64,000 bases of DNA from Mactromeris polynyma (Eukaryota; Mollusca; Bivalvia; Venerida; Mactridae). The notes under the pieces are model-generated. The model did no database searches and had not been told where the DNA came from. It saw only the letters and a program-made list of their open reading frames with translations. Shown here piece by piece: positions 1 through 61,394 of this stretch; within the stretch, counting starts at the first letter, position 1, and each line of letters opens with the position of its first letter. Position numbers and translations under genes: made by a program. Location of the stretch: positions 1,681,501-1,745,500 of the forward strand of contig JASFXZ010000020.1 of NCBI GenBank assembly GCA_032209605.1, given 5' to 3'.

Positions 1-444
1 TCATTGTCTGATAGTAATGTTTTAAATGTTAAAAATCGTTTGCACATTTTGAATGAAAGAATATTTTTGCAATAGTTGCAATTGTGTTTTCATTATTGTC
101 ACGTTAAGTTATTTAACAATAAAATTGAGACCTAAAATAATAAGTACTTTTCAAGTTAATTGCAAGTAACCTGACCAAGTAAATGAATTTACTAATTTTG
201 TAATCGTTGAATAAAAAAATATTTGCACAATATAGTAGATATTGTAAATATTTAAACATAGTCATATTATTCGAACGGATGTGCCTTTCAAGAAGATTAA
301 CACGAAGCCATGTTTTTGACAGATCCGCTTCCAATATAAAGACCCGGTCTTTGAACGACTTTATATTTCATTTCAAATTTAGTACATTGTATGTATTTTA
401 TAACACAGAATATACAATGATATTAATTTGTTTTATTGTTTCAG

Positions 445-857
445 AATCGACGCTGGTCCCACCAGTCGCATTCCAAAGCCATAAAGTGACAGACAGAGGC
501 ATGGCTGACAATAAGGTGATTGTTTTCAGTACCGACATGCTTAATTACAACGATTCCTATGACAACAAGACTGGTACATTCACTGTACCTCTAGATGGCA
601 TCTACATTTTCTCCGTACAATTGTATTTGACAACAAGCCACACATATTATGGGATATATGTTAATGAGGCATTCGTCCAACATGGTCTTATAGGGGATAA
701 AGATCATTACAACACGTTTACCCTGGTTGCATTAGCAGATGTTGCCAAGGGTGACCGTGTTACAGTTCGATGTATATCTAGATGTGGAGGAGACAGGTTG
801 GAAGAATACACGCATTCTACCAGCAGTTTCTCTGGCGTCCTGATTCACAGAAAATAA
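445..857 (+). CDS. C1q-domain protein, last coding exon (gene partial in window)
   Basis: The last exon of a secreted or soluble C1q-domain-containing protein, about 137 residues. A pyrimidine-rich tract ending TTTCAG at 444 gives the acceptor, and the exon opens with two bases of a split codon and stops with TAA at 855-857. Seen in the translation: VAFQSHKV near the start, VIVFSTDMLNYNDSYD, a GTFTVPLDGIYIFSV strand pair, and FSGVLI just before the end. These are the usual landmarks of the gC1q jelly-roll fold in their usual order and spacing. In bivalves such proteins are mostly lectin-like immune recognition molecules; that role is family knowledge. No collagen repeat, coiled coil or signal peptide is visible here, so the 5' exons must lie left of the window. 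In-frame sequence before 445 reads as intron. Confidence 0.85.
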
Positions 858-7300: not shown

Positions 7301-10300
7301 TCACATAAATGGCCAGGGCATGTCGTGACTATTCCAGCTGTTAGGGATATCAACCCCATGCGGACACCATGTAGATCCACATCCCTTATGTATGCCAGCT
7401 GCATGGCTTTCCCATTTCCAGATGCTGTATCTTGGGTGGAGTTTGCCCCCGAGGCAGAGAGGGACGAGTGATTTGAAGTAAGCGACAATAACCACACAAC
7501 CACAGAGGCAATGAAAACAGTAAGTAACCACAAAGTAAACAAACCAGTTTTTTTCAATTTGTTTTTATCATCCCCTGAATTTGTTCAAGCATTAGGGTAG
7601 GACAGGCCTCCAAGCAGGCCTCAATGAAAATAAAGGTTTTAATACAGTTTTCAATTTAGCAAAATAAAGGAATTTTGACCATCTAATTTCATGGATAGAT
7701 ACAGTCGAGACAGGCCGCCAGTGCGCAGCCACACAGAGGATGACTGGATCCTGCCTGAGATCAGAGACTGGCTTCACAAATACTCAACATGATATATGCA
7801 AGTAGTGTCATAAGGTTACGTTCTTTACAAGTGAATAGTACAATATAAATATAATATTCCTAATTTAGTGAAAATATCAAAATGTTTAGAGAGTGAATTA
7901 CAGGTTTTAATACGTTTTTCAGAAAAAACAAAGGTTTTAAGGATTTTCCAAAAAATAAACTCTATTAGAGGTTTTAAATGTTTAACTAGGAGGCCTAGGT
8001 AGGAGCCGCGGGCAGTTAGATCATGGGAGGGGGTATTGCCCTCCTCAAGCAGAAGGTTTAATTTTGACCTTACACACCATGGCCACCGTGTATTTAGTAA
8101 TAGATATTTATCTATGTGGTAAGAAAACCTGTTTACTTTTATTGAAATTATATGATTTGAAATTAGTGATAAAGCCAGCACAAGAGCCAGATGATGGAAG
8201 TTTCCCATAGGAAATAGTTTACTGTTAAGTACATTTAGCACATATATAAAGGGCAAATCAGAGTAAATCTGGAGATAATGTTGTCAGAACTGTAAGGGCT
8301 CGCAGAATATTGAAGTTTTATGACAACTGTCATAATGTAATTCTGGCACTTGGGGACCCAGCATCAAACAGGCCCAGGGAAGTAAGTGCTGTAATGACCT
8401 TCCAAAAGGATACAATACGTTGCCCGTACCATCAGGAAACATTGTCAAGAATTTCTGTCCATGTTCATAAAATTTCTCTATCAATGGACGTTCTCTCAAC
8501 TGAAATATGGAGAGAAAAACAGAATATCAGAAAAATTAAAACAGCAAAATAATGCTATGCATACAATGATCATAATCATGTACATGTACAGTCGGACTTT
8601 GTTCACTGGATTACTTTTTACCAATCCAGTCATGCTTTTTATCAAACTGGATGATTTTTTCCAGTAAGACAAGTTCCTGTTTATCACACATGGTGAGTTT
8701 TACCAGTCCAGACAATCACACATGGTGAGTTTTACCAGTCCAGACAATCACACATGGTGAGTCTTACCAGTCCAGACAATCACACATGGCGAGTTTTACC
8801 AGTCCAGACAATCACACATGGCGAGTTTTACCAGTCCAGACAATCACACATGGCGAGTTTTACCAGTCCAGACAATCACACATGGTGAGTCTTACCAGTC
8901 CAGACAATCACACATGGCGAGTCTTACCAGTCCAGACAATCACACATGGTGAGTCTTACCAGTCCAGACAATCACACATGGCGAGTCTTACCAGTCCAGA
9001 CAATCACACATGGTGAGTCTTACCAGTCCAGACAACCACACATGTTGAGTCTTACCAGTCCAGACAATCACACATGGTGAGTCTTACCAGTCCAGACAAT
9101 CACACATGGAGAGTCTTACCAGTCCAGACAATCACACATGGTGAGTCTTACCAGTCCAGACAATCACACATGTTGAGTCTTACCAGTCCAGACAATCACA
9201 CATGGAGAGTCTTACCAGTCCAGACAATCACACATGGTGAGTCTTACCAGTCCAGACAATCACACATGGAGAGTCTTACCAGTCCAGACAATCACACATG
9301 GTGAGTCTTACCAGTCCAGACAATCACACATGTTGAGTCTTACCAGTCCACGCATGGTATATAATGCACTGGAGGAGTTATCAGTTCAGATAAATATAAC
9401 CAGACAGTATCACTAAGTTTTCACCTGACAAGTCTGCATGAAGAACACATTTGGCAAACAAAGAAGTTTATTGTATTCAAACAACTTATGTCACGGCTGC
9501 TGGATGCCATCCACAGCCCTATATATATATATATTGTAAGATGGAATGAAAGCTGTATTCATGTGGAAAAAACAACAAGTAACCTCTTCAAAGCAACAGC
9601 CTTTAGAAAGAAGTGAATCTTGACTGCTGTTGAGAGGTTGTTGCTTGTAAGAATGACTGAATTGATTAAAACTCTTAATACATTTGTACCAGGAATAACT
9701 GACACGGTTGTTGAACACAGAACTATGTACAGGTTGGTCTGTATTATAAACATTGTGTGAACTTTGAACTAAAGTGTAGAGTTATTATAGTGTCACACCT
9801 ATTTAAAGGGCCAGCCATTTCTGATTTATGAGACACCTACTTTCTTAGCACATTTGCTTCTCGATTCCTATCCTTTAATGCCAGGCACCAGGCAGGTAGG
9901 TGCACGGTAACCATTATTTAACTAGCTGGCGGCTCACCAACCGGCCATAATCAGAACGGACCCCTATCAGGATTCCAACCTTCAACCTCCTGCTCCCAGG
10001 GCAGATGCCTTAAACACTCGGCCACAGGAGATGGTGAACGTAAAATTATGTAAATGTATAAATGTGATTACATATAATACTACAACATGAATAAAAAGGA
10101 GAAAAAATCACAATATCAATTAGGCCTAAAAAATATGTTTATTTCAGGGATTCATGCCCAAAAAAAATAGAGTAGGTTATGGTTGACATTTTTTTTAATT
10201 TTCAAACGAAGCATTAATTAAACATAGATTAAAATGAATATATGTTAAAAGACAAATCCCTTTCCCTTTTAACATGGATAATGTTTAATCAAGGGGCATA

Positions 10301-16300: not shown

Positions 16301-19300
16301 TCCATACTTCGCACTCAGCCCTAATACATAGTACCCACATCTACAATATTTACCTCCCTTGTTCTTAACTGTCGGCCATTTTGATAGGCAAAACTGATAA
16401 GCCCTTATAGGAAAAAATTCCAAATATGTGATATTTGAGAAAATACCAATAGAATTTGCATGTGACAACCACTTTTTCTTTAACTTACTGAGCCAAATGC
16501 CCACATGAGCATAATGAATAAGTTATTTATTATATACCAGATTAGTTGATCATCGTTTACATTATATTCCCCATAACCTTTAAGGAAATTTGCCTATCAA
16601 AATGGCCGACAATTCAGAACAAGGGAGGTTACATATTGTAGATGTGAGAACAAGTGAGGTTAATATTTTAGATGTGAGAAACTAAGTATAACTTACACTC
16701 GCTCTATGATTCACACTCAACTCTCTAAGATAGGGTATCAAATATAATACCCAATATTCAGTTAGCATTGTATTCCAATATGTCACTCACTCAAGTGATG
16801 AGTGCAGAGGGACGAGTATCTGTCATAATTCCGGGCCCAGATTCGTAAAATCAAGTAGTCTATAATCAATCGATTGAAAAACTTAAAAATATAAACTTGT
16901 ACTATAATCATCTCTACATCAAAGTCAAACATGCAGTTTTATTTCAAAAACTCTTAAAGCAAAAAGGTAAACAACTCGTCTGATGTTAACTTTACAACAA
17001 GTAGTGACTTTATGATATACCAATATATTGCAATATACAGCCACCCTGTATTCTACTGCCATATAAAATGAAAGTACAATGACGACAAATGATCAAGCAA
17101 TGACAATGGCCTCTTTGTCTTTTTTTCAATAGATGAGCTAAAATTGTGAAAATATTTTTTTCCGTAAAAATCTGAGCATGCTGAAGTTATTTCAGAACAA
17201 AACTTGCTACACAAGATGACACCTGATGATGATTTATTCCCAGTATTTATCTGAAAGAATTTGAACTTTTATTGACTATATAAATTGGCTTTCAATAAGA
17301 TGAGTTTTACATTCAGTATTGGTAAACCTTCAAATGGGGGAATTTTACAATCAGTATTGGTAAACCTTCAAATGGGGGAATTTTACAATCAGTATTGGTA
17401 AACCTTCAAATGGGGGAATTTTACAATCAGTATTGGTAAACCTTCAAATGGGGGAATTTTACAATCAGTATTGGTAAACCTTCAAATGGGGGAATTTTAC
17501 AATCAGTATTGGTAAACCTTCAAATGGGGGAATTTTACAATCAGTATTGGTATAACTTCAAAAGGGGGAATTTTACATTCAGTATTGGTAAACCTTCAAA
17601 AGGGGGAATTTAACAATCAGTATTGGTAAACCTTCAAAAGGGGGAATTTTACAATCAGTATTGGTAAACCTTCAAAAGGGGGAATTTAACAATCAGTATT
17701 GGTAAACCTTCAAAAGGGGGAATTTAACAATCAGTATTGGTAAACCTTCAAAAGGGGGAATTTTACAATCAGTATTGGTAAACCTTCAAAAGGGGGAATT
17801 TAACAATCAGTATTGGTAAACCTTCAAAAGGGGGAATTTAACAATCAGTATTGGTAAACCTTCAAAAGGGGGAATTTTACAATCAGTATTGGTAAACCTT
17901 CAAAAGGGGGAATTTAACAATCAGTATTGGTAAACCTTCAAAAGGGGGAATTTAACAATCAGTATTGGTAAACCTTCAAAAGGGGGAATTTAACAATCAG
18001 TATTGGTAAACATTCAAAAGGGGGAATTTAACAATCAGTATTGGTAAACCTTCAAAAGGGGGAATTTTACAATCAGTATTGGTAAACCTTCAAAAGGGGG
18101 AATTTTACAATCAGTATTGGTAAACCTTCAAAAGGGGGAATTTAACAATCAGTATTGGTAAACCTTCAAAAGGGGGAATTTTACAATCAGTATTGGTAAA
18201 CCTTCAAAAGGGGGAATTTTACATCAGTATTGGTAAACCTTCAAAGGGGGGAATTTTACAATCAGTATTGGTAAACCTTCAAAAGGGGAATTTTACAATC
18301 AGTATTGGTAAACTTTCAAAAGGGGGAATTTTACAATCAGTAAACCTTCATTAATTAAGGAGAGCTCTGAAATTTCAATTTAAAGGCATGAGAATGAAAA
18401 ATTTCAAAAACAGTGGACATTTCAAGGAGTTCCGGGGGGGGTACGTGTGCAGGTAGTGTACATTTGTATCAATCTCAAAAACGGACCTGGCCGACCCGAA
18501 ACCTGCCGAATTCCGTGAATCCGAGGAAAATTATCATGCTTGAAAAAAGCAATCATTATTATAATAAGGCAGTAAATATTGAAATGAATTAATATTATAA
18601 GTACAAGTATAACCCTGTGTAGCAAACTGATCTATAAAACAGACTAGTAACTGACATGGTATCAGTTCATTCTTCAACAAAGTTGCTTTTAAGTAACACT
18701 TCTCATGCAGGGTAAGAAACACACACAATCAATTAACCAAGAATCTGTATTTTTGAAACAAGGAATACTTATCTAACATATTACAGCCTAGACCTGACCT
18801 GAGACTTTGTGATCACATTGGATTCAAACCTTCCAACGTCATGCATCAGTGGTCTCCATCTCACTACATGTAATAACTTGGCACTAAGATTAACAGCAAA
18901 ACCTCAATAATCAGACCACCAGTTATTTTAAACCGTCTTCAACAATAATAGAAACAAGCAGAGACTACATTAAAACTATGTCAACTCAGAAAAAACTTCA
19001 TGAATTTTATTTAAAGTGTTGCTGATAATATAAAGATGATATTTGTGTGTGTCGGTGTAGGATCGAAAGTTATTTCACCGAGTAAGCAGAGGACGGAATA
19101 TTTTCAGATGTCCACGAGGTGAATTATCGAAACATATGATTATTCTATCTATTTCATGCTTCATTTTGGTCCTTTTTCATATTTTAGTTGTTTATTACAT
19201 AATTAATATTTTAAACAATATTTTAGAACAAAATACTTTATATGACGTCATTACTCATTATCACTTTGATAATTTCACTAAGAGTTTATCATATGATAAT

Positions 19301-28300: not shown

Positions 28301-31300
28301 GACCCTGGAAATGATTTTTTCTGCACATTAAAAACACGGAATTCTGGGAATACGCAGAAGACTTATATCTCTGTAAAGTTTATGTGGCAAGTTATTAACT
28401 GACGGCAAACTTTCACCGAAGGAGTCTCATAAATTGCAAATTACGACAAATTCAGAGTAATAAAACTTCTTTCATCAACATGAATGTATTTTCTTACCAA
28501 ATATCTAAAAAGAATCATAATATATATTGACTACATACAACAAGTATGCTGGTTTAAAGAAGTAGGTTAGATAATCATCGAAGACAAATATTTGCATCAA
28601 TGCTTTATTTTGCTTTAACTGGTTACTATAGAAACACAAATTTATCATACATATGCCACACAAATGACAACATTATACTGACAAAAACAACATTGGCAAC
28701 ATGGATAAGCTAACAAACATCAACTAAGCAAAGCCACAAAAACAATAGGAGGGAGTCTTAGGGGGTTCTAACACCACTCTATGCCAAATATGGCATTGAA
28801 AAGTGAAACACAGTATCTATTATAACAGGACCAAAATTCATACTCAAAGTACTTCATAGAATGAATACTCTACATGCTATCTGTATCTCTGAGTGAGAGT
28901 TTACAAATATAACACACTTTAGTACCTGACACTATACAAATATCAAGTTATTAACAAGATAAACAGTCGGTTAGATGAAGTCCAACCTAGCATTAATCTA
29001 TACAGAGATTCTGTAACCTTCTAACACAGAGCAGCCATTGTTTTTTCAAGAAAATGGTTTAACTTTGCAGTTATTTGAGAATAGAATTAGCATTTTCTGG
29101 TGTACGCATGTTTTCTGCGTCTCTGATGCAATTTTCAGCCCGAGGACCCATATTTATGAACAGCTGTGCATCTGCCGGACCCACATTTAGTCTCCAATTA
29201 GCCCATTTCAGCAAATTGGCACTTTTTATTATTTAAATGCCTTTGTGGTAAATACTTGCTCCCAATATCGCCTCAGAGCTTGCACCTTGCAAGCGTCTCA
29301 GTAATACATGATCACAATGGCTAATGAAACAGTTTCGTAGCAAAAATTCTACTCGTGGATCCCGAAAATTGATCAGGGATTCCAAAATTTGCGAATGTGG
29401 GAGTCCCAGGACCCCTATTTGAAAAATTTCAATGGAGACCCTGATTTTCATTCCTAAATTATAAATCTTACTGAATTAACAAAAACCTATGCCAGCTGAT
29501 AAGATCACTTTCTTGGATTCTTGAAATTCGCAAATACTTCCATGCCACAGATTATCACTGCCTTAAATTGACCAATTAATTAAATTTTCAATCTTAAACA
29601 ATATTGCTAATTTGTTCAGTCATACATGGCAGTTAGTAGACCTAACCAGTCTTCCTGGAAGTAATGATCAATCAATACTAACATGCCATAATCCGCGAGC
29701 AGCTGACAACTTCTCCACATGATTCAGACGTGGAGGACATATGACCGAAGCCAAATGTCATGGAAGGACATAAGCAACATGGGAAATAATTTTAAAATAA
29801 ATTATCTGAATAAATGCAATAGAAACAAATTTTATCTCAGTAATAAAACAGAACAGTGTTTTTTTGTTAGGAAATTTGTGATTTAACGCTGTGGCCACGG
29901 TGTACGGAATAGTACGGTATTTACAGCATTATTATTCAAACAAATGATGGAGTGGGTTCAGAAAACTTGTTTATTTGTAAGGAAATTATATCAATACAAA
30001 AATACCTATGTAGTCAGTATGAGCGTCAGATCATTGAAGTTTCTCGTGGTAATGAGATTTTGCCCTGTTCTACTACACTTTCTCCAATCATTCGAGAAAA
30101 TGTGTATTTTTTTATGTTTTGTTTGTCAGTTTTCTTGACTGTTTGAAGAAACTGTAGACATAAGGACTACAATCGCACGACTGTAGGAACCTTCAATGAT
30201 CTGATGCTCGTGACTAATAGCAATAAGTACAATTTCATAGGTTTTCTTACCATAGTCAGTCAATTGTCAATAAATATCTACTGGTATAATAAATGCCGTA
30301 CTTTTCTATAGAAAGTGGACACAGTGGTTAATATAAGAGGAGACCATAATTTAAAGAGGGCCTTACAAAATGTATAACCCAAAAAAAATCCAAAATGGCT
30401 GCCCTGTATTTTCTAGCCAAACAAAGCACACTACATTGTACCTTCAATTCGTGCGGCAGCTAAAGAGATCATAAATCAACATAAAAAATCTGAATAAAAT
30501 TATACATGCAAAATAAATTTTAAAATGGATAAAATCTGCATACACTGAAATTAAACAAGCACTATAACAATAAAAAGCACATGCATAAATTAAAATTGTC
30601 TACAAAACTACTACCGTCTGATACCCGCAATTGACTGCTCTGTTTCACTGCAAGCAGAAAATTTTGCTGTTCCCTTTGATGCACAATTTGTAACAAAACC
30701 TAGTGAGACGTTTATTAATTAATTAAATTAATTAATTCTGAAAGACCATTTGAACAGTATGGATCAGATTTTCGTCATCAGAACAATGTGATGCCAGAGC
30801 TCCTAAAGAACAATCTTTGTGATTGGTTAAGAAAACTCACATGAAATCAGGAAGCAACCAATGAAATGGCAGTATTGGCTAAAACCGACTGAATACGGAG
30901 ATATAAGGAGAGTGACAGAAACAGATCGCTTGTGGATATCAGACGACGTTAAACTAGTAGCGGCTAAACATACAACACATGCGACCAGTGAAAAAAATGT
31001 TGACAAAATATGCAAGATACGCGAAAACAAAATATTATTGAGATAGTGATTATGGGGTTTTAATGCTATTTCACAGAATTTGCATTCATTACACCGGCCG
31101 ACAGAGATCTATCGGCCATTTATTTTCCGACCAGTACTTTCATCTGACTACATGCAACAGACAATTTTCTGTATTGTACTACCTACTGTCTATTCACAAT
31201 TAGTTGAGACTACCATTATTGTGTACACAATGTCTATTGGTCAATCATTTCCAAAACATGTTTTCATTGGCTGAATACAAAATGTGTTTTCATTGGCTGA

Positions 31301-34300
31301 ACACACAAAATGTTTTCATTGGCTGAATACAAAATGTGTTTTCATTGGCTGAACACAAAATATGTTTTCATTGGCTGAATACAAAATGTGTTTTCATTGG
31401 CTGAATACAAAATGTGTTTTCATTGGCTGAACACAAAATATGTTTTCATTTGGTGAATACAAAACGTGTTTCCATTGACTGAATACAAAACCTGTTTCCA
31501 TTGACTGAATACAAAACGTGTTTCCATTGACTGAATACAAAACCTGTTCCTATTGACTGACCACCTCATAATTTGTTTCTACCCATTTTCAAGTAAATAA
31601 AAACAGACTATGGGTGAATAGTAAAACATAACAACTGAATGCACAAAAAGCTAAAGGATCGTTATTTGGGTGTTTTACATTGTGCATTGAAAGTTGCTTT
31701 GAAGTTTATGAATAAAATACCACAGATGCAAATATTTGACCTGTAGACTTGGCTGAAAACACAGGAGATGTTCACGAGTTCTCTCTCTTTACCTTTTCTA
31801 GAGTTCTCTCCCTTTATCCCTTTTATAGTGTAAGTTATAGTATATATACATATACTATAGAAGTAATAAGGGGAGAGAACTCTACAAGGAATCAAGGGAG
31901 AGAACTTGTGACAATCCCCTGCAATTGAAAACATATGAACAATACAACAGAACATCAAGGGGAATAACTCAGATATATGATAACATGTAACAAAGTTTCT
32001 AGGTAAGGAAACATGCATATATTTGAATGATGCTCCAATACAGTGCTCCGATACATACCAAACATGTCTTTCATATTCGCCGATTGACCGGACACACCGG
32101 CAAGTTTTGTTATACCGACTTTAGGCGTGCCACCTTGTCCAGCTACACAGGGTGAAGACAGAAGAGAAAGGAAGAAAGAGAGAGAAAGAAAATAGAATAA
32201 TAAATGTATTAGTACAAACAACAGCATGTGATGGTGTTATTTTATGGTGCCACCTCTCCAGAGCCGTCTTCTATTGAGCAACCAATTCCTGTGATATAAT
32301 TGTTTGAACTCGTATCTTATGGATGAAAAATAAAATTGTCGGAATTACTTTTTGTTATGTCAGCTTTTGTTTACCAAAGACCGAATTACACACGTACTAC
32401 TGCTTGCATATAGGAGATCAAAGTTTTGTCAAAAATCAGCTGTTTCTGCAGTTATGTCATACTAAGAATCTTACATTCATGTTCATTTTTTCTTGATTTT
32501 ATTTACCTTGTTATCTAAAACTGATAAAAATGAGGCTTTACCTGTTTTTTATTGGTTTTAGATGACAAGTTTAATAAATTCAGTATGTTTCTCTGGAGAG
32601 CCTGCACAGAATTCCATATTATAAAATACCGTATTTGCTCCATATAGCACCTCTTGTTTTAAAATCAATGAGCTTTTTCATATACAGACGAGTAACAGAG
32701 TGTACTATGACAAAGATAAATGGATAAGTTTAAAAAGGTTGATAAAATTTCAAAAAGAATTTAAGTTAAGGACAGGTATTATGCCATAAACATTTTCATT
32801 TTTTTTTTTATAAAACAGAGTTTCATACATATGTTTGAGGTGTGAATTTATTGAGAAAAGGGAAAAAAACATTTACCTGTAAAAGAATACAAAACAATCA
32901 TAAGGGTTCCCTAATCAATGTATCATTATGACAGACATAAGGTAATAGATACAAGGCTAACACGTCATGTCACTTCCCTGTTCTTTGAACGGCAGCGGGA
33001 ATCAAAATACTAACATAAACAGGGGTGCTTATCAGAGCAAATACAGTAATTTAAACAACACACGTTCCACCACCAATATACGCTAGTTTAGCCAATCAAA
33101 TTGTGACATCGTATCTTGCTGTACCTTCCTTAATTACATCCAGAAAGCCCTTCCCAATTAACTATATTGGCCGACTCCTCCTGATTAATTATATTGGATA
33201 CCCTTCCAAATTAATTATACTGAAATTTCCTTCGCCATCATAAGACCCAATTCACCCAATGAATCACCATTTAACACACCCTTATTGTATTCAAACTAAA
33301 TACAGATGTCACAATTAAATGCATCACACAATTTAAATTATAGCCAAACATATACATATATATGTTGAATTTAAAAGTTAAGAAAATACAGTAAAAAACA
33401 AGATGTGTCCATAGGACATGGATGTCCCTGCTATGGGCTTTTAAGTCAAAAAAGGGCCATAACTCCTAAAAATATGGAAGAATAGAAATTGAAATCGAAC
33501 TTGACCTTTATTTTATTATTCTTTTCTTTATGTGCCAAATATGAATTTTATCCATCCATCCTTTCAAGAGTTCTTGATCGGATTTTTAATACCTCAAATG
33601 GTGGGGGGCATAAAAACTAGCAAAAAGACAATTGTTAGCCACCACAAAAGAAGTTAAATTCCAAGAAAGTCAAAGTTATACCATACAACACTTACAAAGT
33701 CGAATGTGAGTATGATAAAAGAAATACCAGGGCAATTCTAAGTTGGCCAAAATTATAGTCTAAAATTGTAAATAAGACCAGAGCAGACTTCTAGTCCATA
33801 TCAGGAATTTTAGTCTAAGTTTTAAGCCATTTTCCAACAATATTTCTGTTTTGTATGGCTGTTAGTTGACCAAACCCAATGTTCCTGGGTTACCAAGCAT
33901 TCCTGACCTATTCTTCCCCTGAACAACTGACAACTTGCCCACATGAATCAGAGGTGGAGGACAAATGACCGTAGCTAAATGTCACAGAGGGACATGACCT
34001 GCTCCAACCGAAAATCAAACCCAGACATCCTGGGTGGCAGCCCAGAGCTCAACCAACTGAGCTATACCTAATGACAATTATTGTTAGTATACATAATTAA
34101 AACGCCTGGTATAACAGTTTTGTATACATAGGGGTGTCACTGATAGAAATAATATTGATTCATGATCAATACAGTTGATCAGATATCGATCTTGAAATAT
34201 CCATACATTGAAAAACCTTGTTCGTTTATTGTAGTGATACTGATAGTTGTAATTAAATGCTTATTTTTTCATTGTGATTTTCGACTTCCAATGCATTTCT

Positions 34301-43300: not shown

Positions 43301-46300
43301 AAAAGTCACGTGTTCACCCACCCTGTTTTCCTAAAACCCCCAGAAAAAGCCCTGAAAACAAAAACAACAAACTTACTATCATCTAATGTGTTGGCGGTAC
43401 CGCTGGTTTCTGCCTGCTCCACCCACTCCCAATCTGTCTGGGTATTCAAGGTAACAAACATGATTTCTCGGCCATCATATGTCCGTCTTTTACTTTTTGT
43501 CGGAGCACTGAATAAATGTAATGTTCATGGTTAAGTACATGTACATGTATCAAATGGAGCATGCAACCGAAAAATTAAGAACACAATTTTCCATTTTCAC
43601 TGTTTCGCTCTTTATTCAACCTTAATATTAGGACCGCCTCAAAAAGATCAGTTTTCAAGGGTCCTGAGGGTGGTCTTATTATTGAGGTTTTACTATATTA
43701 CCCCATAAAATACAACTGGAACATTATAGCATGTAAATTACTTAGATCTATATAATATTTTAGCACTGGTCTATGTTGTTTTAGTTAGGAATTGATGCCG
43801 ACGTAATTTCCCACTTCTGACAGCCGACATTTTCTGCCCTAAAATTTATGTCGACAACCAACAAATAGCTGTGTAAAATATCCATGCATAAAAGGCAGGA
43901 TCAGGTTAATTTTTACAAGCTATATTAATTCAGAGTGAATATTTAATTGATCTCTATGATCTTATAACTCCAATCAGAATCATTTTTCAGCATAGCTGTA
44001 TAATATTGATTTTGACCTACATTATAGACCAATCAAATGTTGTACATGAAGCATGTTGTTTAAATATGCAACCAATTAGATGATTTGAATGGTTCATATT
44101 TTAAGTGGAGCGGCCCCAAATGGGGTGATTCACTTCCCGTAGCGTACCCCTCTGGCGAAATCAGAGTTCTGATATAGGGCGATTATTTACACATCCTTCT
44201 ATCTACCCAGCTCATCTTTTTTAAAAGATGTTTCTTGTTAATACTTAATATGTAAATGCAATAAAGTTGCTTAAAAAGTCAATTATGAAATATAATACAA
44301 AAAAAAGACTTGTAACATAACATACGACGTAGAGCGGTAATAACACCAATGTACAATTTCCAATCATTCACTACTGAAATAACAACTCGCAGGTGTGACG
44401 TCAAGCGTGTATTATAGACGCGCAAAAATGATGTTAACATTGTTAAATATTTATTTTGTATGAAGTATGACATTTTATGTCATTAAATATTATTGTATAG
44501 TTAATTTGCATATGATCTCTATGATATAATTATTTGAACTTGTATCTTGTGGTTGAAAAATTAAATGAGAAATGTCGGAATTACTCTTCAGTGCATCAGT
44601 CCGAATTACACACGCTATACAAGGCTTGCATAATTATAGTGGGTCAAGAATGTACATGTTACGTTTTGTCGAACATCAGCTGTTTCTGATGATATGTCAT
44701 AAATAGAATTTTACAAGAGTGGTAATTTTTAATTGTATTTATTAAACGAGTCTGTTTAAAACGAAAACAGTTATTGCTTTTCTTTGTTTCTATAATTTTT
44801 TATCGTTTTTTAGAAGACATGTTTAACAAATTCAATAAAAAAGTTACCACTCATAAGTAAATCAATAAAGTACCTCAATAAATAACTCACCCGTTGTTAA
44901 AGGACACAGATCTTTGTGGCTCGTCATCATATTCATCATCCGAAATCACTTCCGGACGAAATCCTCGAATAATTCGGGGACGGGCGCTTCCCTCACCCGG
45001 ACGATCCAGAGCCGCAGAAGAAGCTAAAAATAAAGTTTAAACATGAAATTATGCTTTAAATATCCGAACTAGTATGTTGCGAAACCCCTAAATAAAGATG
45101 GAGGACAAATGATGGCTAGACCCGAAATTACAACCGATGCTCACCACTCTGTCAAAATTTTTGTTTTAGTATTTCCTCAGATTTGAGCTGGTGTCATAGT
45201 TTACAGTGCTTTCTGCGAGCTAAGGATCCTTTTTGATACACATTTTATTGAAATCTGAGAAAATATCTTAGATTGAGTGTAAATTAGTAGAGCCGAGAAC
45301 CAAGTACAAACAATTCTTACTTTAAAAAAATATGTTATGCAAATTGGCAATATAATACAAGAAAGCTTTAATTATAAGAAATAATGTATTGAATAATAGA
45401 AACTGATGTATTTATACATTCAGTTGTTCATCCTCGACTGTAAATGAATAAGTGCTAACTGTAATGTATTTTCTATTTTCTATGCAGTCACGTGAAAACT
45501 TTGTATATAGGTATATATATGAAATGTTCTATATAGACGATGTACTTTGTATAAGTCTAAATAAAATATATGTTCTGTTCTGTTCCTTAAATCTCAGATC
45601 CACACAGAAATCTTGGATACACACTGGAATCTTAGATACACACTAAAATCTCGGAAACACACTCAAATCTCAGATTCACACTCAAATCTCAGATACACAC
45701 TCAAATCTCAGATTCACACTTAAATCTCAGATCCACACTCAAATCTCAGATTCGCACTCAAATCTCAGATTCACACTCAAATCTCAGATTCACACTCAAA
45801 TCTCAGATACACACTCAAATCTCAGATACACACTCAAATCTCAGATTCACACTTAAATCTCAGATACACACTCAAATCTCAGATTCGCACTCAAATCTCA
45901 GATTCACACTCAAATCTCAGATACACACTCAAACCTCAGATTCACACTCAAATCTCAGATACACACTCAAATCTCAAGGACAATGGCGTACTCAGCACTC
46001 AGCATATAAAATAATCACCAGTATCTGCAGGCAAATGACATAATAGAGTAAAGAATATACTTGCATAAACTCTTAAGTATCTTTAACCAGTCTTAAAAGA
46101 TATTTCTAAATAAATGATTAAAAAAGAATTATTGCCAAACTGTGCTCTTTCGATAAATTTATACTATAAATTTCTAAAAATAAAACATGAAATCGGGGCA
46201 TGAGTCGTGAGCTCTCAGTGACTGTTATAATGTCAGGTCCTTAAGTTTTTACGTAGGTCATTCACAAATTTAAAATGACTGCTCTTGGATTATCTGCCAA

Positions 46301-53376: not shown

Positions 53377-54561
53377 TTACAGCTGTCCGGCAACGCCCGA
53401 CCTGAACGCCTCGATGGTAGTGGCTACTGTCAGGTGAGCTGGAAGAGTGTTCCATAGTCGTATGCTTGAGGGGAAGAAAGAATGTCTGTATGAGTCCGTT
53501 CTACAGAATGGCACCATGTATCTTGCGTGTGTGTTGATTGCAGTGGAGGTACGATAGTGGGAGGATGCATCAATGTCGACCAGGCAGTATAAAATGCGGT
53601 ACACCATGATGACCTTTGTGTATTTTCTGCGTTGCTGCAATGTTTGCCAGCCAAGTTTGTTAATCATGTTGGTGGTGCTACTTGTGGTGTGATAGTCTCC
53701 TGTGACGAAGCGGGCTGCTCGACGCTGTACAGCCTCTAGTGACTGTATACAGTTCTGAGTATGAGGGTCCCATACTGGGGCAGCATATTCTAGGATGGGT
53801 CGCACAAGGGACTTGTAGCACTGGTCCTTGATGTGGCTAGGACAACTCTGCAGGTTTCTGCGTAGGAAGGCTAGGCTGTTGTTTGCCTTCTTTACAGTTG
53901 TCTCTACATGAGGCTTCCAGGATAGCTCTTCTGATAGGGTGACGCCGAGATATCTTCCTGTCTTGGCAACTGCTAGTGTTTCGCCGTGGATGGTATAGGC
54001 TGTAGATGTTGGATTTCTCTTGCGGCTGAATCTTATGACTTCGCATTTACTGGGGTTGAATGACATTTGCCAGTCCTCTTCCCATTTCTGTAGGCTATCA
54101 ATGTCCTCTTGTAGGGCTATGGAGTCTTGGATAGTCCTTATCTTCCTGTATAGCAAACTGTCATCAGCAAAAAGTCGTGAAGTAGATGAAGCTTTTGCTG
54201 GGAGGTCGTTGATATACAGGAGAAAGAGAAGAGGGCCTATCACTGAACCCTGTGGTACTCCCGAGGTAACAGGTGCTGATGTAGATACCTGGTTTTCTAC
54301 GACCACTCGTTGGCTTCTGTCTGTCAGGAAACTTCTTATCCACTGTAGAGTGTTTCCTCGAATACCATAGTGGTGGAGTTTGTGCAGCAATCGTTCATGA
54401 GGCACCTTATCGAACGCCTTGCTAAAGTCAAGCAAGATGGCGTCTACTTGCTCTCCGTCATCTAGAGCTGATGCTAGGTCCTGGATGGTTATGATAAGTT
54501 GGCTCTCACAGGACCTCTTTTTCCTGAATCCATGTTGAGCATCAGATAATATTTGTAAACG
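53377..54561 (-). pseudogene. 5'-truncated LINE reverse transcriptase (non-LTR ORF2 remnant)
   Basis: An open frame of about 395 codons on the minus strand with the C-terminal part of a non-LTR retrotransposon reverse transcriptase. Seen in order: DAQHGFRKKRSCESQL, ILLDFSKAFDKVPHERLL, GVPQGSVIGPLLFLLYINDL, the catalytic FADD box (SRLFADDSLLY), then the thumb (WQMSFNPSKCEVI, LGVTLSEELSWKPHV, SLVRPILEYAAPVWDP) and the RAARFV region to AFRSGVAGQL and the stop. An in-frame stop at 54562-54564 and loss of all upstream sequence (endonuclease, first RT blocks) mark 5' truncation, the normal fate of LINE copies. The catalytic Asp pair and the rest of the frame are intact, so the insertion looks fairly young. 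Clade is probably in the Jockey/CR1/L2 group; not resolved by eye. It lies between two divergent genes. Confidence 0.9.
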
Positions 54562-54965: not shown

Positions 54966-54979
54966 ATGAATCCACTAAC
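54966..54979 (+). CDS. RBMX2: RBMX2 exon 1, coding part (14 nt)
   Basis: ATG AAT CCA CTA AC, followed by the perfect donor GTAAGT at 54980. Only MNPL and two bases of Thr are encoded. The start was chosen because MNPLT matches the RBMX2 N terminus and the phase fits exon 2 exactly. The 5' UTR extends left, limit unknown. Confidence 0.9.
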
Positions 54980-57900
54980 GTAAGTATCTGTATTATTCCA
55001 TATCGTTTTAACAAACACACTAATGTTTACGCGCTAGTCGGGCTACGAGCAAACAAGTGCAGTTTTCGGCTAATAACTTTCGGACAAACTTATTGGGGTT
55101 TTCTCTAGGAATTTTCAGCAAGGGGTCATTAGACCCAGGTGTTTGACAAATTGGGGGTCTTAAGTGTATTTGTAGGGTCCTATATATGATTTTAGGGTTC
55201 CCAGGGATGCACAGTAAGTTGAAAATGAGTCCCAAGAAAGAAAAGGAAGTCAGAAGAATTCCAGACGTTTCACCCCCAAGTCGTTTCCACCCCAAGACGT
55301 TTCCACCCCAAGACGTTTCACCCCCAAATCATTTCCTCACAAGACGTTTCACCCCCAATTTTAATAGACACTAGACTTTTCACCCCCACCTTTTAATATA
55401 ATTATTTTTGTGTGATTTACTATTTTATTTGATGTTTTTTCAAATTAAATTGTTAAGTTATAGTTAAAAAACCCTCTATCTTCATGTTTAATGACTTTGC
55501 AGTAATGTTGTGATTTAATGAACACCCTTTTCACTTATTATATAATTCTGTAATAAAAAATATGAATATGATTTGTAAAAAGTTGTGAAAAACATAACTG
55601 ATTTGAAAAAATAACTGCCTTATCATGATTAAAAAGTAAATAAGTATTATTTATTCAATGGCAAAATTATAAAAAACTTAACATAATACTACTATTAATT
55701 GTATCCATATATATCAATGTACACTTCTTTTTTGCATTTTAATCTTTATTTAAATAACTAAATATACTTTATAGACATAATTAGAAATGCATGTAAACTT
55801 ATTTAATTATCATTATGTCTACTCATCCTTATTATTTGTTAAGTCTCAGTAGTAATATTTATGTTGGGGGTGAAACGTCTGCATATGTAACAAATACTGA
55901 GACTATTCACCCCCAAAATGGGGGTGAAACGTCTTGGAAGGAAATGACTTGGGGGTGTCGTGAAACGTCTGACAACCAAGTCAGAAACTCAAGATTTCTA
56001 TCTCAAGGAAATCCCTGATATTATTCGTTGTCATTTTATCAATGACTATGGTACTTAAACTATGCAAAATGAAGTTAATACTAGAGTCAACTTGGAAGAT
56101 TAAAAGAACAACTTGGATTTAAACAGGCTGGTATATGTATAATTGTAGTTAGACTTGTTTGAACTCTAGGTAGCGGTGAGATTTTCTTCCGATATCAAAC
56201 AGTCAGAACACCTTAACAATTGTACGAAAATTATCCACAACTAGCGTGGTTTAATCGGATGGAATTTCTATGTGGTTTTTACCAGCTGTGTTAACAGGTT
56301 AAAACCGTCTTGGTCAATGTTCTCAGATGTTCAGTATGAAATGTGGTCATACAGTGTTAAAAAGTCTATTTGAATATTGCTGATTGTTATAATGTGAAAG
56401 TGTGTCTTTCAGGAATATAAAGAACCAACAAAAGTTGAACCAGACTGAGTTAGCTCTCGGACTGACGGGGAAGAAATCTTGGCATGATCAATACAGGGAC
56501 AGTGCTTGGATCTTTGTTGGAGGGTTGCCATTTGATCTAACAGAGGGAGACATCCTTTGCGTGTTTTCGCAGTATGTATATACTATGTATTACTGGGAGA
56601 TGTAGTGAAGGAAGGGTAAAGCTCCTAACTCAAAGGCAGTAAGTTGAAACCCACTTTAGGCAAGGTGGAACTATCCCTGTCCTTCACATTCCAGAGCAAC
56701 AACATCTTGACAACAGCTGAAATATGCATTGATGCATCTCTTGAGACGTTACACAGTAAATTAAATTAATTCACTGAGTTTTGGAAGGCTGTGTTGCTGA
56801 CACTGTCTCGAATTTTGATCGCACAATACCAATATAGTTAAGTAAGTTGCTTGTGTTCTACTAAAATTATAGAACATCAAATACTTCACAATGTGGTTTA
56901 TTTCAAGAGTAAAATAGTTGACTTTAAAGGACTATTTTTTAGACAAAACTTTATTCTGGCAATAATGTAGTTAAGTCTCGTTTATTTGCTGATATTCAGG
57001 TAAGCAATAATCTGCATGTTATTACCAATATAAATACACATGCAGACCATTCTGCGTTTCAGGTATGGTGAGATTGTAAATATAAATACACATGCAGACC
57101 ATTTTGGGTTTCAGGTATGGTGAGATTGTAAATATAAATACACATGCAGACCATTTTGGGTTTCAGGTATGGTGAGATTACCAATATAAATACACATGCA
57201 GACCATTTTGGGTTTCAGGTATGGTGAGATTGTAAATATAAATACACATGCAGACCATTTTGGGTTTCAGGTATGGTGAGATTGTAAATATAAATACACA
57301 TGCAGACCATTTTGGGTTTCAGGTATGGTGAGATTGTAAATATAAATACACATGCAGACCATTTTGGGTTTCAGGTATGGTGAGATTGTAAATATAAATA
57401 CACATGCAGACCATTTTGGGTTTCAGGTATGGTGAGATTGTAAATATAAATACACATGCAGACCATTTTGGGTTTCAGGTATGGTGAGATTGTAAATATA
57501 AATACACATGCAGACCATTTTGGGTTTCAGGTATGGTGAGATTGTAAATATAAATACACATGCAGACCATTTTGGGTTTCAGGTATGGTGAGATTGTAAA
57601 TATAAATACACATGCAGACCATTCTGGGTTTCAGGTATGGTGAGATTGTAAATATAAATCTGGTGAGGGATCAGAAGTCGGGAAAATCAAAAGGATTTTG
57701 TTTCATATGTTATGAAGATCAACGCAGTACAATTCTGACTGTTGATAATTTGAATGGCATTAAGGTGAGATATTTTCTGTATTCTTACGTTACTGTATAC
57801 AATGTTATCTTTCACTTTGGTAGAAGCTGTTGTGGAGAGGTTGTTGCTCTAGAGAGCCTAAAGTGATAGTGAATTCTTACCCCAGGGAATATTTAGTGTT

Positions 57901-60900
57901 GTCAGGGGTTCCATTTGACTCCTGGACTTTCCAAAATGATTCTGGCCGATGGGTACATTTTTCTCTAAATTATAGTCATTTGGTAAAATCCAGTAAAAAA
58001 TTATCAAAATGACCCTCCAGATTCAAAACCTCCTGGTTGTTGACGATAGATTGTTCTTCAAGAGGGCCGCTATGGATAGACGCTCTGTATTAAATTTATC
58101 CTGTGCGAGCCTTTTGTTTAATGACTTGATATAAAATCAGTCTTGAATGTCTTGAGACATAAGTTTATTATTGAATAATTACACTCATTAATTATCTAGT
58201 CTAACCAAATGATTGCAGAGATAGCTAAATTCATCTGTTGTTGCCGTTGCAGTTAATTTTTAACCAGGTTTTCAATGAATGGTGATGTTGTTGGACAGAC
58301 GGTTGGTCGTCAAACTGAGGGTTTACGGTGAATAACTAGTTTCGTTTGTCATATTTACTCCAAACTTAAGTGTATAGTAAGAACGTGTGAAGAGCTTGCT
58401 TGGGATTGCTGTTTGGGCCATTCCGTCCAAGGTCACGCATACTAAAAATAGGAAATCATTTTCTGGCGAATAACTCGAGTGTATTGTAATAACTTATGCA
58501 GGGCTTACTTGGGATTGCTTTTTGGATGTTCTATCCAAGGTCAAGGTCACTAAATGCATGTCTGCAATATAGTTTATCTTACACACAGGTTTTTCTACAA
58601 AATCTTCCATTACATTCAACTAAATGACCTGAAATAACTTGATGTCTATTGTTCTTGATGTTGAAAACCTGGTTTAGTAGGATTTCCACATTTCTTGTTA
58701 AAAGTTTTACTGCCTTTCAAGCAAGTTGTCTTAGAAATGTATTTTCCCCCATAACATTCCACCTACCAAGTTAAATTTGAAAACTCAACAATCTATAAAA
58801 CAATATGCAATGCTAGTAAAATATTTTTTGAAGACTTAACTTGTCTCCTGCATTATAAATTATGCAGAATTCCTGTACTATTGCCTGAAATGGTAAGCTG
58901 CTAAACTTCCTCCTTACATCATTAGTCATGATTTAACTTCAGTTGCTTGGTCGCATGATTCGTGTTGACCATGTAGAAGATTATAAAAAGCCCAAGGAAC
59001 ACGGGACTGAGGACGAGATTACAATGAAACTCAGAGCAGTAGGCTGTGCTCCGAGAGTACCAGATTCCCCGGAGGAAATGTCGAGCGAAGAAGAACCACT
59101 GCAAGTCAAAGTGAAAGTGAAGAAAGGTACTAGATCATGACCCTTGTTTGGTCAGTTTAGGGGTCGGTTGTGGGAACTATTCCCATGATAAAAAAAGTTT
59201 ATTTTCCTAAGTTTTTCATTCGGAAATTTGGATTCAGAGCCACTGAGACCGATTTCTAGATTGACATTAAAAATGATTAATCAGATGAGTATTTATGAGG
59301 AGGGGGGTAGGGGTGAACTGCTACTGAAGTGTTCCAGATTGAGGGTTTGGCTCTGTTGACACCCCTGTTTTCTTTTCAAATTCCTCTCCTCCAAAAAAAG
59401 CATAAAGGGTGAGGTATGATGCATATTTCTTTAAATTTTTTAAGACATTTGTCAGATATGTATATTTTTCAAAATTGATTGAAACATACATCTCCCTGCA
59501 TAAATTATTAGATTTCTACTATCGGACGTTATGCACCTTTTGTTGCATTTTTAGTTTAAACTTGTTTATATTGCCTTGAATGTGAAACAGGGCACAGGAT
59601 TATATACTCACAATCACCACTCAAAACATTACATTTACACTTATAAGTCTGATCGTGGTTTGAGTGTGAAATATGTATGATAATGTAAAATGAGTGCTGG
59701 ATGTTCTTTGTGACGTTTTCTTAGAGATTTGAGTGGAATATTGGATCTGGGAGTAATTGTTCAGTGTGGCCATAAAACCCAATAATTACTCCCAGATCTC
59801 TTAATCTCTCTAAAATCTCAAAGACAAGGGTCCAAAAAGAATGCACCTATTTAACATGTTCATGCATTTCCACTCTCCAACTTCCACCATCAGACTAGAA
59901 AGAGTAGTAAATTTTGTAATTTGAGTGCTGAATGTAAGTATCCTTTATAATCCCAGGTCCTGGTATTGCAATGTATATTAATTACTCTCATGAGGTACCT
60001 GGAGAATCTTGTCCAAGGCAGGATTTGAACCCGCAATGTCTACTTCAGTTCTGGGCTCTATTCTAGACCCATGTCACTGTATGTGCTGCCACTTTGAAAG
60101 CCAGACAGATAAGCTGAATTTTGATACACTTATGACTCCTTCAATCATGTATAGTTGAATAAATGTTTGAAAGCAAGATAAGGTATTACAGCCAGACCTC
60201 GTTCATTCGAAATTTTGTCAGGTCCGAAATTTTATTTCGAATAATACATGGTTTAGATTTCGATCTAATTCAACGTGCAGCATAAGAAGATACATCAAGA
60301 CCTGATATTTACTTTGAATGGTACCGAGTATTCGGATAGTTGTCAAAGGTTGTCGAATAAACGAGGTCCGACTGTAATTTGTTAATTAATGAGAGACTGG
60401 TATTAGTAAACTCGTGTAATTTAGGGTAGTTTGCTCAAACGTTCAAAGTGCAAGTTTTCTGTTCACAGAGAAGAAAGTTAAAGTGAAGAAAGAGAAAAAG
60501 AGTAAGAAGAGAAAGAAAAGACACTCATCAAGTTCTGATAGTGAATCGGACTCCGAAACTACGACATTACAGAAGGTAAAAGTCAAGAAGGAGAAACATG
60601 ATCCTGGATATGACAAAGCTGTGAATGCTGGAAAAGAAAAATTCAAGTCGAAAAGATCTCATTCCCCGTACGATACATCTGAGAGACAGAAGTTTTTAAA
60701 GTATAATAAAGAGTTATCTGATGGAGGAAGGGAGTATAATGACTCCGAGAGAGGTAGAGAAAGAGGAAATAGAGACATTACGAGTAGTGATGATTCTTAT
60801 GTTCATCAGGGAAGAGACAGAGATAGTAAGAATAGTAGAAATAAAGACAAGGATTATGTCGATAGAGATAGTAATGAAGCATTAAATAAAGAGTTTAGAG

Positions 60901-61394
60901 ACGGTGACCGCAATTATAACAGTGGCCGAAATAGTCGAGACTTTGACAGAAATCGAGATGTTAGGGACTTTGACAGAAATCGAGGTGGTAGGGACTTTGA
61001 CAGAAATCGGGATGGTATGGACTTTGACAGAAATCGAGATGGTAGGGACTTTGACAGAAATCGGGATGGTAGAGACTTTGACAGAAATCGAGATGGTAGA
61101 GACTTTGACAGAAATCGAGATGGTAGGGACTTTGACAGAAATCGTGACGGTACAAACTTTGATAGAAATAGAGGTGGTAGGGACTTTGACAGAAATCATG
61201 ACGGTACGAACTTTGATAGAAATCGAGATGGTAGGGACTTGGACAGAAATCGGGATGGTAGAGATTCAGGAAGCAGTAGAGGCAAGAAGAACTATCATGA
61301 AATGGATAGAACATATCATAATCGGGATGAGAGAGTGTATGATAAAACAGACAGTCATAGAAGGGATAGAAGAGATAAATACAGTGATGATTAA
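54966..61394 (+). CDS. RBMX2: RBMX2 homologue, RRM splicing factor of the RES complex, complete
   Basis: Coding exons 54966-54979, 56413-56571, 57635-57764, 58943-59126 and 60469-61394: 1413 nt, 470 residues, all phases consistent and all introns GT-AG. The start MNPLT is the RBMX2 N terminus. Residues 28-112 hold WHDQYRDSAWIFVGGLPFDL (RNP2 IFVGGL), EGDILCVFSQYGEIVNINLV, KGFCFICYEDQRSTI (RNP1) and GRMIRVDHVEDYK, the RBMX2/Ist3 RRM and following helix. RBMX2/Ist3 (Snu17) joins Bud13 and Pml1 in the RES complex of activated spliceosomes (family knowledge). After residue 150 the tail is basic and Ser-rich, then Arg/Asp-rich with a 12-unit nonamer repeat at residues 319-426. Human RBMX2 is 322 residues, so this tail is unusually long. 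Poly(A) signal at 61546. Confidence 0.95.
55240..55980. mobile_element. Inverted-repeat element with GGGGGTGAAACGTCT motifs, in RBMX2 intron 1
   Basis: Left cluster CAGACGTTTCACCCCCAAGT, then four more GACGTTTC(A)CCCC units to about 55390. Right cluster from 55862: GGGGGTGAAACGTCTGCATA, GGGGGTGAAACGTCTTGGAA and ACTTGGGGGTGTCGTGAAAC, ending GTCTG. The two clusters are inverse. The AT-rich middle (55391-55860) has no open frame. Confidence 0.7.
56413..56571 (+). CDS. RBMX2: RBMX2 exon 2
   Basis: 159 nt, residues 5-58. Acceptor GTCTTTCAG at 56412, donor TCGCA|GTATGT. Encodes GKKSWHDQYRDSAWIFVGGL and the first RRM helix ending CVFSQ. Confidence 0.95.
57030..57660 (+). repeat. 52-bp tandem repeat duplicating the exon 3 splice acceptor, 12 acceptor copies
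   Basis: Unit AAATATAAATACACATGCAG ACCATTTTGGGTTTCAGGTA TGGTGAGATTGT. Each contains the 3' splice site GGGTTTCAG|G and the first codons of exon 3 (Tyr Gly Glu Ile Val Asn). The acceptor occurs near 57060, 57112, 57164, 57216, 57268, 57320, 57372, 57424, 57477, 57530, 57582 and 57634. The last is the real one; after it the sequence leaves the repeat into exon 3. One unit (57180) has TTACC in place of TTGTA. Confidence 0.95.
57635..57764 (+). CDS. RBMX2: RBMX2 exon 3
   Basis: 130 nt, residues 58-101, YGEIVNINLVRDQKSGKSKG and FCFICYEDQRSTI then LNGIK. Acceptor GGTTTCAG at 57634 (last unit of the 52-bp array), donor AAG|GTGAGA. Its first 22 bases are part of the repeat. Confidence 0.95.
57903..58034. 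mobile_element. MITE family D, copy 3
   Basis: CAGGGGTTCCATTTGACTCC to ACCCTCCAGATTCAAAACCT, with GATTCTGGCCGATGGGTACA inside. Shortened in the middle relative to 40536-40730. Confidence 0.6.
58320..58560. repeat. SINE-like repeat, two ~105-bp units
   Basis: GAATAACTAG...GTGTATAGTAA...GGGATTGCTGTTTGGGCCAT CCAAGGTCAC-type text occurs twice, the second as GGGATTGCTTTTTGGATGTT. It lies in RBMX2 intron 3. Confidence 0.5.
58943..59126 (+). CDS. RBMX2: RBMX2 exon 4
   Basis: 184 nt, residues 102-162. LGRMIRVDHVEDYKKPKEHG completes the RRM and adjoining helix; GCAPRVPDSPEEMSSEEEP follows, then the basic VKVKVKK. Acceptor TAACTTCAG, donor AAAG|GTACTA. Confidence 0.95.
60187..60376. mobile_element. 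Tc1/mariner-like MITE, family A, copy 5
   Basis: TACAGCCAGACCTCGTTCAT to AATAAACGAGGTCCGACTGT A. The clearest copy of the family, about 90 bases upstream of RBMX2 exon 5. Confidence 0.8.
60469..61394 (+). CDS. RBMX2: RBMX2 exon 5 (stop codon), Arg/Asp repeat tail
   Basis: 926 nt, residues 163-470. Acceptor CTGTTCACAG at 60468. Begins EKKVKVKKEKKSKKRKKRHS, then HSSSSDSESDSE, a mixed basic-acidic region, and twelve nonamers of RDFDRNRDG type. Ends KYSDD then TAA at 61392-61394. Low complexity but an open frame of 308 codons with codon variation among repeats, so it is translated. Confidence 0.95.
60936..61259 (+). repeat. 27-bp coding minisatellite, 12 copies, RDFDRNRDG repeat
   Basis: Twelve in-frame units, variants RDFDRNRDV, RDFDRNRGG, MDFDRNRDG, TNFDRNRGG, RDFDRNHDG, TNFDRNRDG and RDLDRNRDG. 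Unit length divisible by three, so copy number can change without frameshift. The opposite strand is also open across it by composition. Confidence 0.95.

Follow-up and report, generated by a model that had tools for sequence, protein, structure and literature searches.

A Tandem Array of Twelve 3' Splice Sites in a Bivalve RBMX2 Gene Is Probably a Recently Expanded, Nearly Neutral Minisatellite

The window analyzed here, the whole 64,000-nt stretch of DNA, carries an intact RBMX2 gene on its + strand, with five exons, a predicted product of 470 residues, and GT-AG borders at all four introns. The coding part of exon 1 (54966..54979, +; MNPLT) ends at the donor AAC|GTAAGT, and exon 2 (56413..56571, +) ends at a weak donor, GCA|GTATGT. 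Intron 2 (56572..57634, +) is 1063 nt long, or 491 nt minus 11 of the repeat units described below, and has a GC content of 35%. Exon 3 (57635..57764, +) opens with G|TAT GGT GAG (QYGE) and is followed by exon 4 (58943..59126, +) and exon 5 (60469..61394, +, including the stop codon). This last exon contains a coding array of its own, 12 in-frame units of 27 bp at 60939-61261 (+), which encodes a 9-residue repeat resembling RDFDRNRDG; the Mactra antiquata protein has different repeats in this place.

That the gene is RBMX2, as an earlier note on this DNA had proposed, is supported by the intact 470-residue frame, by the RRM domain found with Pfam in the predicted product, by its top match among solved sequences (RBMX2, chain 5z56_Y, E 9.6e-64, from what we take to be the human activated spliceosome), and by its homologues. 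Among the 120 homologues listed of 1971, the best is from the heterodont bivalve Mactra antiquata, with 88% identity over 96% of the first 160 residues, and Mercenaria, Mya and Dreissena are the named runners-up, so that the DNA probably comes from a heterodont clam. The motif FSQYGE is present in 118 of these 120 listed homologues, as compared at the protein level.

Several other features were noted in the window. About 400 bp before the RBMX2 start, a 394-residue open frame on the opposite strand (53380-54561, -) has a reverse transcriptase domain (RVT_1, E 2.4e-29), and a C1q domain (E 4.7e-15) is encoded in another open frame, at 204-854 (+). Within RBMX2 intron 1, AGACGTTTCACCCCCA units face inverted TGGGGGTGAAACGTCT units (55263-55398 and 55864-55957); their longest arms are 43 nt, 91% complementary and 553 nt apart, and possibly represent a large hairpin or the remnant of a mobile element. 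Other large minisatellites are located at 8683-9350 (32 bp x 21), 17305-18342 (38 bp x 27), 31252-31542 (26 bp x 11) and 45589-45976 (19 bp x 20). A scan with Rfam gave no match at the array on the intron 2/exon 3 boundary and a single tRNA-like match far from it, at 9959-10031 (-), which scored 30.8 bits against a gathering score of 29 and lies ~600 bp from the 32-bp array; our guess is that it is perhaps a tRNA-derived SINE.

The boundary between intron 2 and exon 3 lies within a tandem array of 12 units of 52 bp (57027..57659, +), for which TRF reported a period of 52, 12.2 copies, a 98% match and a score of 1224. Each unit is made up of 27 nt from the end of intron 2 and 25 nt from the start of exon 3, joined at TTTCAG|G. 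The stretch TTTCAGGTATGG occurs 12 times on the + strand of the window, always inside the array, from 57057 to 57629 and with each spacing exactly 52, and TTTCAG|GTATGG is present at these positions in all 12 units. The row of twelve near-identical acceptors described in the earlier note was thus found as described, as were its 52-bp unit spanning the boundary and its position for the last intron base of the productive acceptor, 57634. Two details needed correction: the exon part of the unit comprises one G and eight codons (YGEIVNIN), not six codons, and the array starts at 57027. The first acceptor (TTTCAG, 57057..57062, +) is non-productive if read through, and the twelfth (57629..57634, +) is productive and runs on into the full exon 3.

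When the units were phased from AATATAAAT, nine of the 12 were identical (36 of 66 pairs), and 5 of the 52 columns were variable. Column 26 is a C in units 1 and 12 only and a T in units 2-11, and the unit 3/4 junction carries ACC, the variant found in the intron flanking the array on its 5' side. Unit 1 also has GCG where the other units read GGG, within the acceptor stretch GGGTTTCAG. The combination of identical inner units with variant edges is the kind of trace that exchange leaves in an array whose edges are sheltered.

The consequences of using each acceptor were followed in the reading frame. When read through to exon 3, acceptors 1-11 all give a 77-residue frame (11/11) that stops at the TGA of the next unit, in agreement with the earlier expectation that an upstream copy would shift the frame and meet a TGA there, and only acceptor 12 yields the 470-residue frame by simple read-through. 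Transcripts with a stop well upstream of an exon joint are expected to undergo nonsense-mediated decay, and decay of the products of acceptors 1-11 would be expected because their premature stops precede two exon joints and lie >100 nt upstream of the first of these, the exon 3/4 joint (in the closest case, coding ends at 231 and the joint is at 355). Paths in which a single cassette from the array is spliced in, and the intron after it measures at least 60 nt, fail in 91 of 100 cases and are open and in frame in the other nine. These in-frame cassettes are all of one kind (9/9): they begin at acceptor k, end at the ATG|GTGAGA site in unit k+1 and measure 57 nt, and each is predicted to add 19 residues. 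The proposal that acceptor choice decides between functional and truncated protein therefore stands for simple read-through but not in general, as re-splicing to unit 12 could erase the error and the 57-nt cassettes keep the frame.

The strengths of the splice signals were estimated from U1 and U2 duplex energies, using what we take to be the ends of the snRNAs, and from pyrimidine counts; these are crude measures that involve no trained model. By them, the exon 2 donor GCA|GTATGT has a U1 duplex of -3.7 kcal/mol, and 23.7% of the 3465 GTs on the + strand are as strong or stronger. The donor of exon 3, AAG|GTGAGA, is a strong one, at -9.6 and 0.4% of GTs. Each unit of the array has two matches to a 5' splice site, CAG|GTATGG (-8.8 kcal/mol, 1.3% of GTs) and ATG|GTGAGA (-8.1), and all 24 of them are stronger than the exon 2 donor. 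Both motifs follow from coding for Q-Y-G-E. Joining exon 2 to any unit produces GCA|GTATGG, with a U1 energy of -3.3, close to that of the native donor.

At the 3' side, the sole good branch-point-like match is the one before unit 1, TCTGCAT (-3.4), with 10.8% of YAGs as good, and those before units 2-12 all score -1.4, with 62.5% of YAGs as good. The pyrimidine share is also highest at unit 1 (0.65 vs 0.59), and folding of the RNA leaves acceptor 1 more exposed than any other (unpaired at 0.60, vs 0.21 at acceptor 12). Taken at face value, these crude scores for branch point, pyrimidine share and folding would all favor acceptor 1 over acceptor 12, and simple proximity would favor a wrong acceptor too. 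The locus sharply poses the question of how the spliceosome passes 11 equal acceptors.

Upstream of the array lies a donor at 57000, CAG|GTAAGC (-11.0, 0.17% of GTs), whose U1 match is the strongest of those listed from 56500 to 57800. Speculatively, it could end a 57-nt candidate cassette exon with an in-frame TAG (56943..56999, +), or else form a ratchet-like site, TTCAG|GTAAGC. We note this stop-bearing exon but do not claim it, as its acceptor has a poor branch-point match, with 93% of YAGs scoring as well.

The origin of the array can be proposed from a 9-bp word, AATATAAAT, that occurs once in the single-copy intron (57027..57035, +) and once in exon 3 (57651-57659), the intron copy likely being the founding microhomology. 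A shared word of at least nine letters appeared in 14 of 3000 letter shuffles when the last 63 nt of single-copy intron were compared with the first 30 nt of the exon. Slippage or exchange between the two copies would produce a unit of exactly 52 bp, and we infer that the founding event was such a tandem duplication, which would have copied 27 nt from the end of intron 2 together with 25 nt from the start of exon 3. Expansion and homogenization to 12 units presumably came later, and were probably recent since the inner units are near-identical and the variants are at the edges. The window is rich in minisatellites, with nine arrays of at least five copies on 6.0% of its length, and, with the boundary array left out, random placement is expected to put 0.4 of the 8 RBMX2 splice sites in arrays, with a probability of 0.34 for at least one. 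As a repeat the array is not due to chance; that it should fall on a splice site is less remarkable in such a window.

Overall, our hypothesis is that the array is a "mirage", a kind of minisatellite known from amphioxus, that it expanded recently and is nearly neutral, and that acceptor 12 is the one in use; we consider this reading probable. By analogy with amphioxus, splicing would mostly use acceptor 12 and the upstream units would be mere intron, presumably because the twelfth copy alone leads into a full exon, one that has a strong donor of its own further downstream. Occasional use of acceptors 1-11 would lead to the 77-residue frame and to removal by nonsense-mediated decay. Alternatively, an early choice might be erased by a second splicing step, which would be possible because the joint GCA|GTATGG restores nearly the original donor. 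The array would then be tolerated, and its copy number probably differs between individuals. A regulatory role is not needed to explain the array, and the alternative in the earlier note of a neutral minisatellite with the last site favored holds up.

A nearly neutral mirage is supported by the exact 52-bp period, the intact 470-residue RBMX2, the pattern of edge and inner units, and the 9-bp word, as well as by the minisatellite-rich window and the second, in-frame 27-bp array in the last exon of the same gene. By analogy, the amphioxus precedent and an intronic minisatellite in abalone also speak for it, as does the strong exon 3 donor. Its units lie in tandem across an intron-exon boundary, unit 12 is continuous with the authentic exon, and the inner units are homogenized (nine identical) with divergent edges. 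Against it are the three crude scores that would favor acceptor 1, and the weak exon 2 donor facing 24 stronger matches in the units, which is not required of a neutral array. These 24 matches are less telling against neutrality because they follow from coding for QYGE.

Recursive splicing is an unlikely alternative. Here, early acceptors would be used and the joint GCA|GTATGG would be re-spliced stepwise to exon 3, leaving a normal mRNA. Every acceptor has the form TTTCAG|GTATGG, the CAG|GTATGG of the unit is a good match before splicing (-8.8), and the residues FSQYGE behind the site recur, at the protein level, in the 118 listed homologues mentioned above. Excerpts of PMC6224609 provide the definition of RS-exons, with which the array shares an exon that opens with GTATGG and a joint that rebuilds a 5' splice site; it differs from known recursive sites in having twelve in tandem within a 1-kb intron and in being a prediction from sequence. 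The rebuilt joint is weak (-3.3 vs -3.7 for the native donor), however, and ATG|GTGAGA only 5 nt further on (-8.1) would compete with it and break the frame: all ten paths with this 5-nt insert fail. The same excerpts (PMC6224609) also report that, in human cells, the exon junction complex keeps such sites repressed.

A further possibility, which we regard as quite doubtful, is that the RNA structure of the intron picks the acceptor. A single-copy 5' arm, TCTGCATGTTATT (57011..57023, +), lies outside the array, and a 3' arm, AATACACATGCAGA, is repeated within it, first at 57033..57046 (+) and last at 57605-57618. If the former were a docking arm that pairs with one of 12 selectors and loops out the earlier units, the array might be a newborn docking-selector switch, in which one arm chooses between 12 acceptors and all but one of the choices lead to decay. 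This would be the early-stage topology of Dscam exon 6, and the array may represent an early step in the duplication of one arm by which Dscam-like competing pairings would arise, according to the proposal of Ivanov and Pervouchine (excerpts of PMC6071210). RBMX2 output would then depend on copy number and RNA folding, and be inherited as a variable-number repeat.

The 14-nt selector is identical in all 12 units and forms a duplex of -14.4 kcal/mol with TCTGCATGTTATT in each of them; it was found nowhere else on the + strand of the window, where the 9-nt arm TCTGCATGT occurs once. Only 1 in 2000 permutations of the arm paired with a unit as well. The single-copy tail at 57000-57062 is predicted to form a hairpin of 13 pairs with one bulge (z -3.1, 2/500 shuffles) that ends 16 nt before the acceptor, and a perfect stem as long as its longest one, 9 bp, came up in 2/600 when the last 63 nt were shuffled. 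At equilibrium, predicted pairing of the arm with the selectors sums to 0.78 over the 12 units.

These figures depend on the stretch considered, however. The chance of a 9-bp stem grows from 13/600 shuffles for 80 nt to 16/600 for 100 nt and 33/600 for 150 nt, and such a stem is present in 8 of 421 other 63-mers taken from the window. Pairing with a unit at least as good was offered by some 13-mer in 24/1000 shuffles when the 40-nt stretch preceding the array was shuffled, and in 74/200 when the whole upstream intron was. In the actual intron, the stretch 56637-56656 pairs with a unit even better (-16.6). The hairpin is uncommon at its spot and not uncommon across the intron at large, and the support against chance is moderate. 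Folding of the region that extends from the docking arm as far as acceptor 3 (57011-57166) shows no clear excess over shuffles (z -1.66, 9/200). The predicted pairing moreover prefers unit 1 (0.30, or 0.33 with a longer stretch) and hardly includes the productive unit 12 (0.004 and 0.010), and in the single best predicted structure the docking arm is paired with unit 2. The pairing of arm and selector must also predate the array, the units hold no complete exon, and their identity makes a covariation test impossible. In a separate comparison, masking of the acceptor stretch GGGTTTCAG through pairing with 56637-56656 (with TGAAACCC) was considered and set aside: an energy of -14.8, that of the best 13-mer there, was reached in 31/200 shuffled versions of the upstream intron.

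The earlier note had also raised autoregulation by array splicing as conceivable, whereby high activity of RBMX2, or of the RES complex, would shift acceptor choice and lead to nonsense-mediated decay. We consider this improbable. RBMX2 is a spliceosome protein, all 11 upstream acceptors truncate it, the exon 2 donor is weak, and the candidate stop-bearing cassette exon at 56943-56999 has the strongest donor of the intron. In the excerpts of PMC6047831, RES binds between branch point and acceptor in yeast actin pre-mRNA. The zebrafish introns that depend on RES are short, with a median of 281 nt, rich in GC and weak in their branch points, and the decay-triggering ones among them have weak donors and acceptors too (PMC6047831). 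The poor branch points before units 2-12 and the weak exon 2 donor fit the decay-triggering class, but intron 2 is long (491 nt even without 11 units) and AT-rich, unlike RES-dependent introns. The units also look recently homogenized, so that any regulation would be young. The titles and abstract openings of the listed literature on RBMX2, the RES complex and splicing do not mention RBMX2 autoregulation. The suggestion gained no positive evidence, and the length and GC content of the intron do not fit it.

That the array is an assembly artefact, or has a wrong copy number, is very improbable. Near-identical repeats are error-prone in assemblies, and there are precedents: one amphioxus mirage looked aberrantly assembled in a draft genome (excerpts of PMC3087553), and the repeat number in lancelet PGBD5 varies between assemblies. 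The internal variants, at the unit 3/4 junction and in the edge units, and the exact spacing argue for real sequence. Finally, novelty in the protein through the 57-nt cassette, with 19 residues added between what we take to be alpha1 and beta2 of the RRM, is scarcely credible: in-frame paths of this kind exist (9 of 100 single-cassette paths), but the insert would double part of beta2 in a conserved domain.

The RBMX2 array can be compared with several known systems, whose descriptions here come from excerpts of the papers cited. As in the docking and selector sequences of Dscam, one arm is single and the other is copied with each acceptor, which would give competing pairings, and the docking arm is complementary to the selector at every alternative (12/12). 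The array differs in that the units are not exons, only one of them is predicted to lead to a working product, the selectors are identical, and it is known only at the level of sequence. The alternatives are not complete mutually exclusive exons but an acceptor with 25 nt of exon, and the products of the upstream ones would all (11/11) be truncated on read-through.

Intron gain by tandem duplication, as in the Rogers model, ATP2A1, the 24-bp repeats of fission yeast and potato RdRp (PMC4974935), provides a second comparison. The potato RdRp duplicate, like the RBMX2 array, crosses the 3' end of an intron and the 5' part of an exon and inherits splice signals. The fission yeast repeats are likewise multi-copy and contain AGGT, but are exonic only. 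In the intron-gain cases the new intron is in use, whereas the 57-nt cassette path of RBMX2 is only predicted. Among molluscs, a 27-bp minisatellite within an intron of an abalone gene varies in copy number among individuals and, as far as the excerpt extends, does not lie on a boundary (PMC6905558). An array on an intron-exon boundary was not seen in the excerpts of three mollusc papers (PMC6905558, PMC4732748 and PMC3862624). The published boundary-spanning minisatellites that we found are those of amphioxus, next to the single duplication in potato and the exonic repeats in fission yeast.

The amphioxus mirages are minisatellite-like tandem duplications of an intron-exon boundary, described in Adh3, TnC, BflGb6, BflGb9 and PGBD5, and splicing was reported to be undisturbed in those of Adh3, the globins and TnC (excerpts of PMC3087553 and PMC3902484). 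Like the RBMX2 array, BflGb6 repeats the 3' end of an intron and the 5' part of an exon, and its edge units escape homogenization with exchange among units (PMC3087553). The sizes differ: RBMX2 has 12 units of 52 bp, BflGb6 has 6 or 3 units of 150-160 bp, the Adh3 units are 10-72 bp, and PGBD5 has up to seven units of 60 bp in one assembly. Many amphioxus units contain AG/GT signals, and AG|GT is present in all 12 units here. The RBMX2 array also differs from the amphioxus mirages in its hairpin, one arm of which recurs in each unit, with the partner arm lying outside the array. The locus offers a natural experiment on how the spliceosome picks one of several identical 3' splice sites distinguished only by their location. 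With 12 units, and in the gene of a bivalve splicing factor, it would also extend the range of known mirages.
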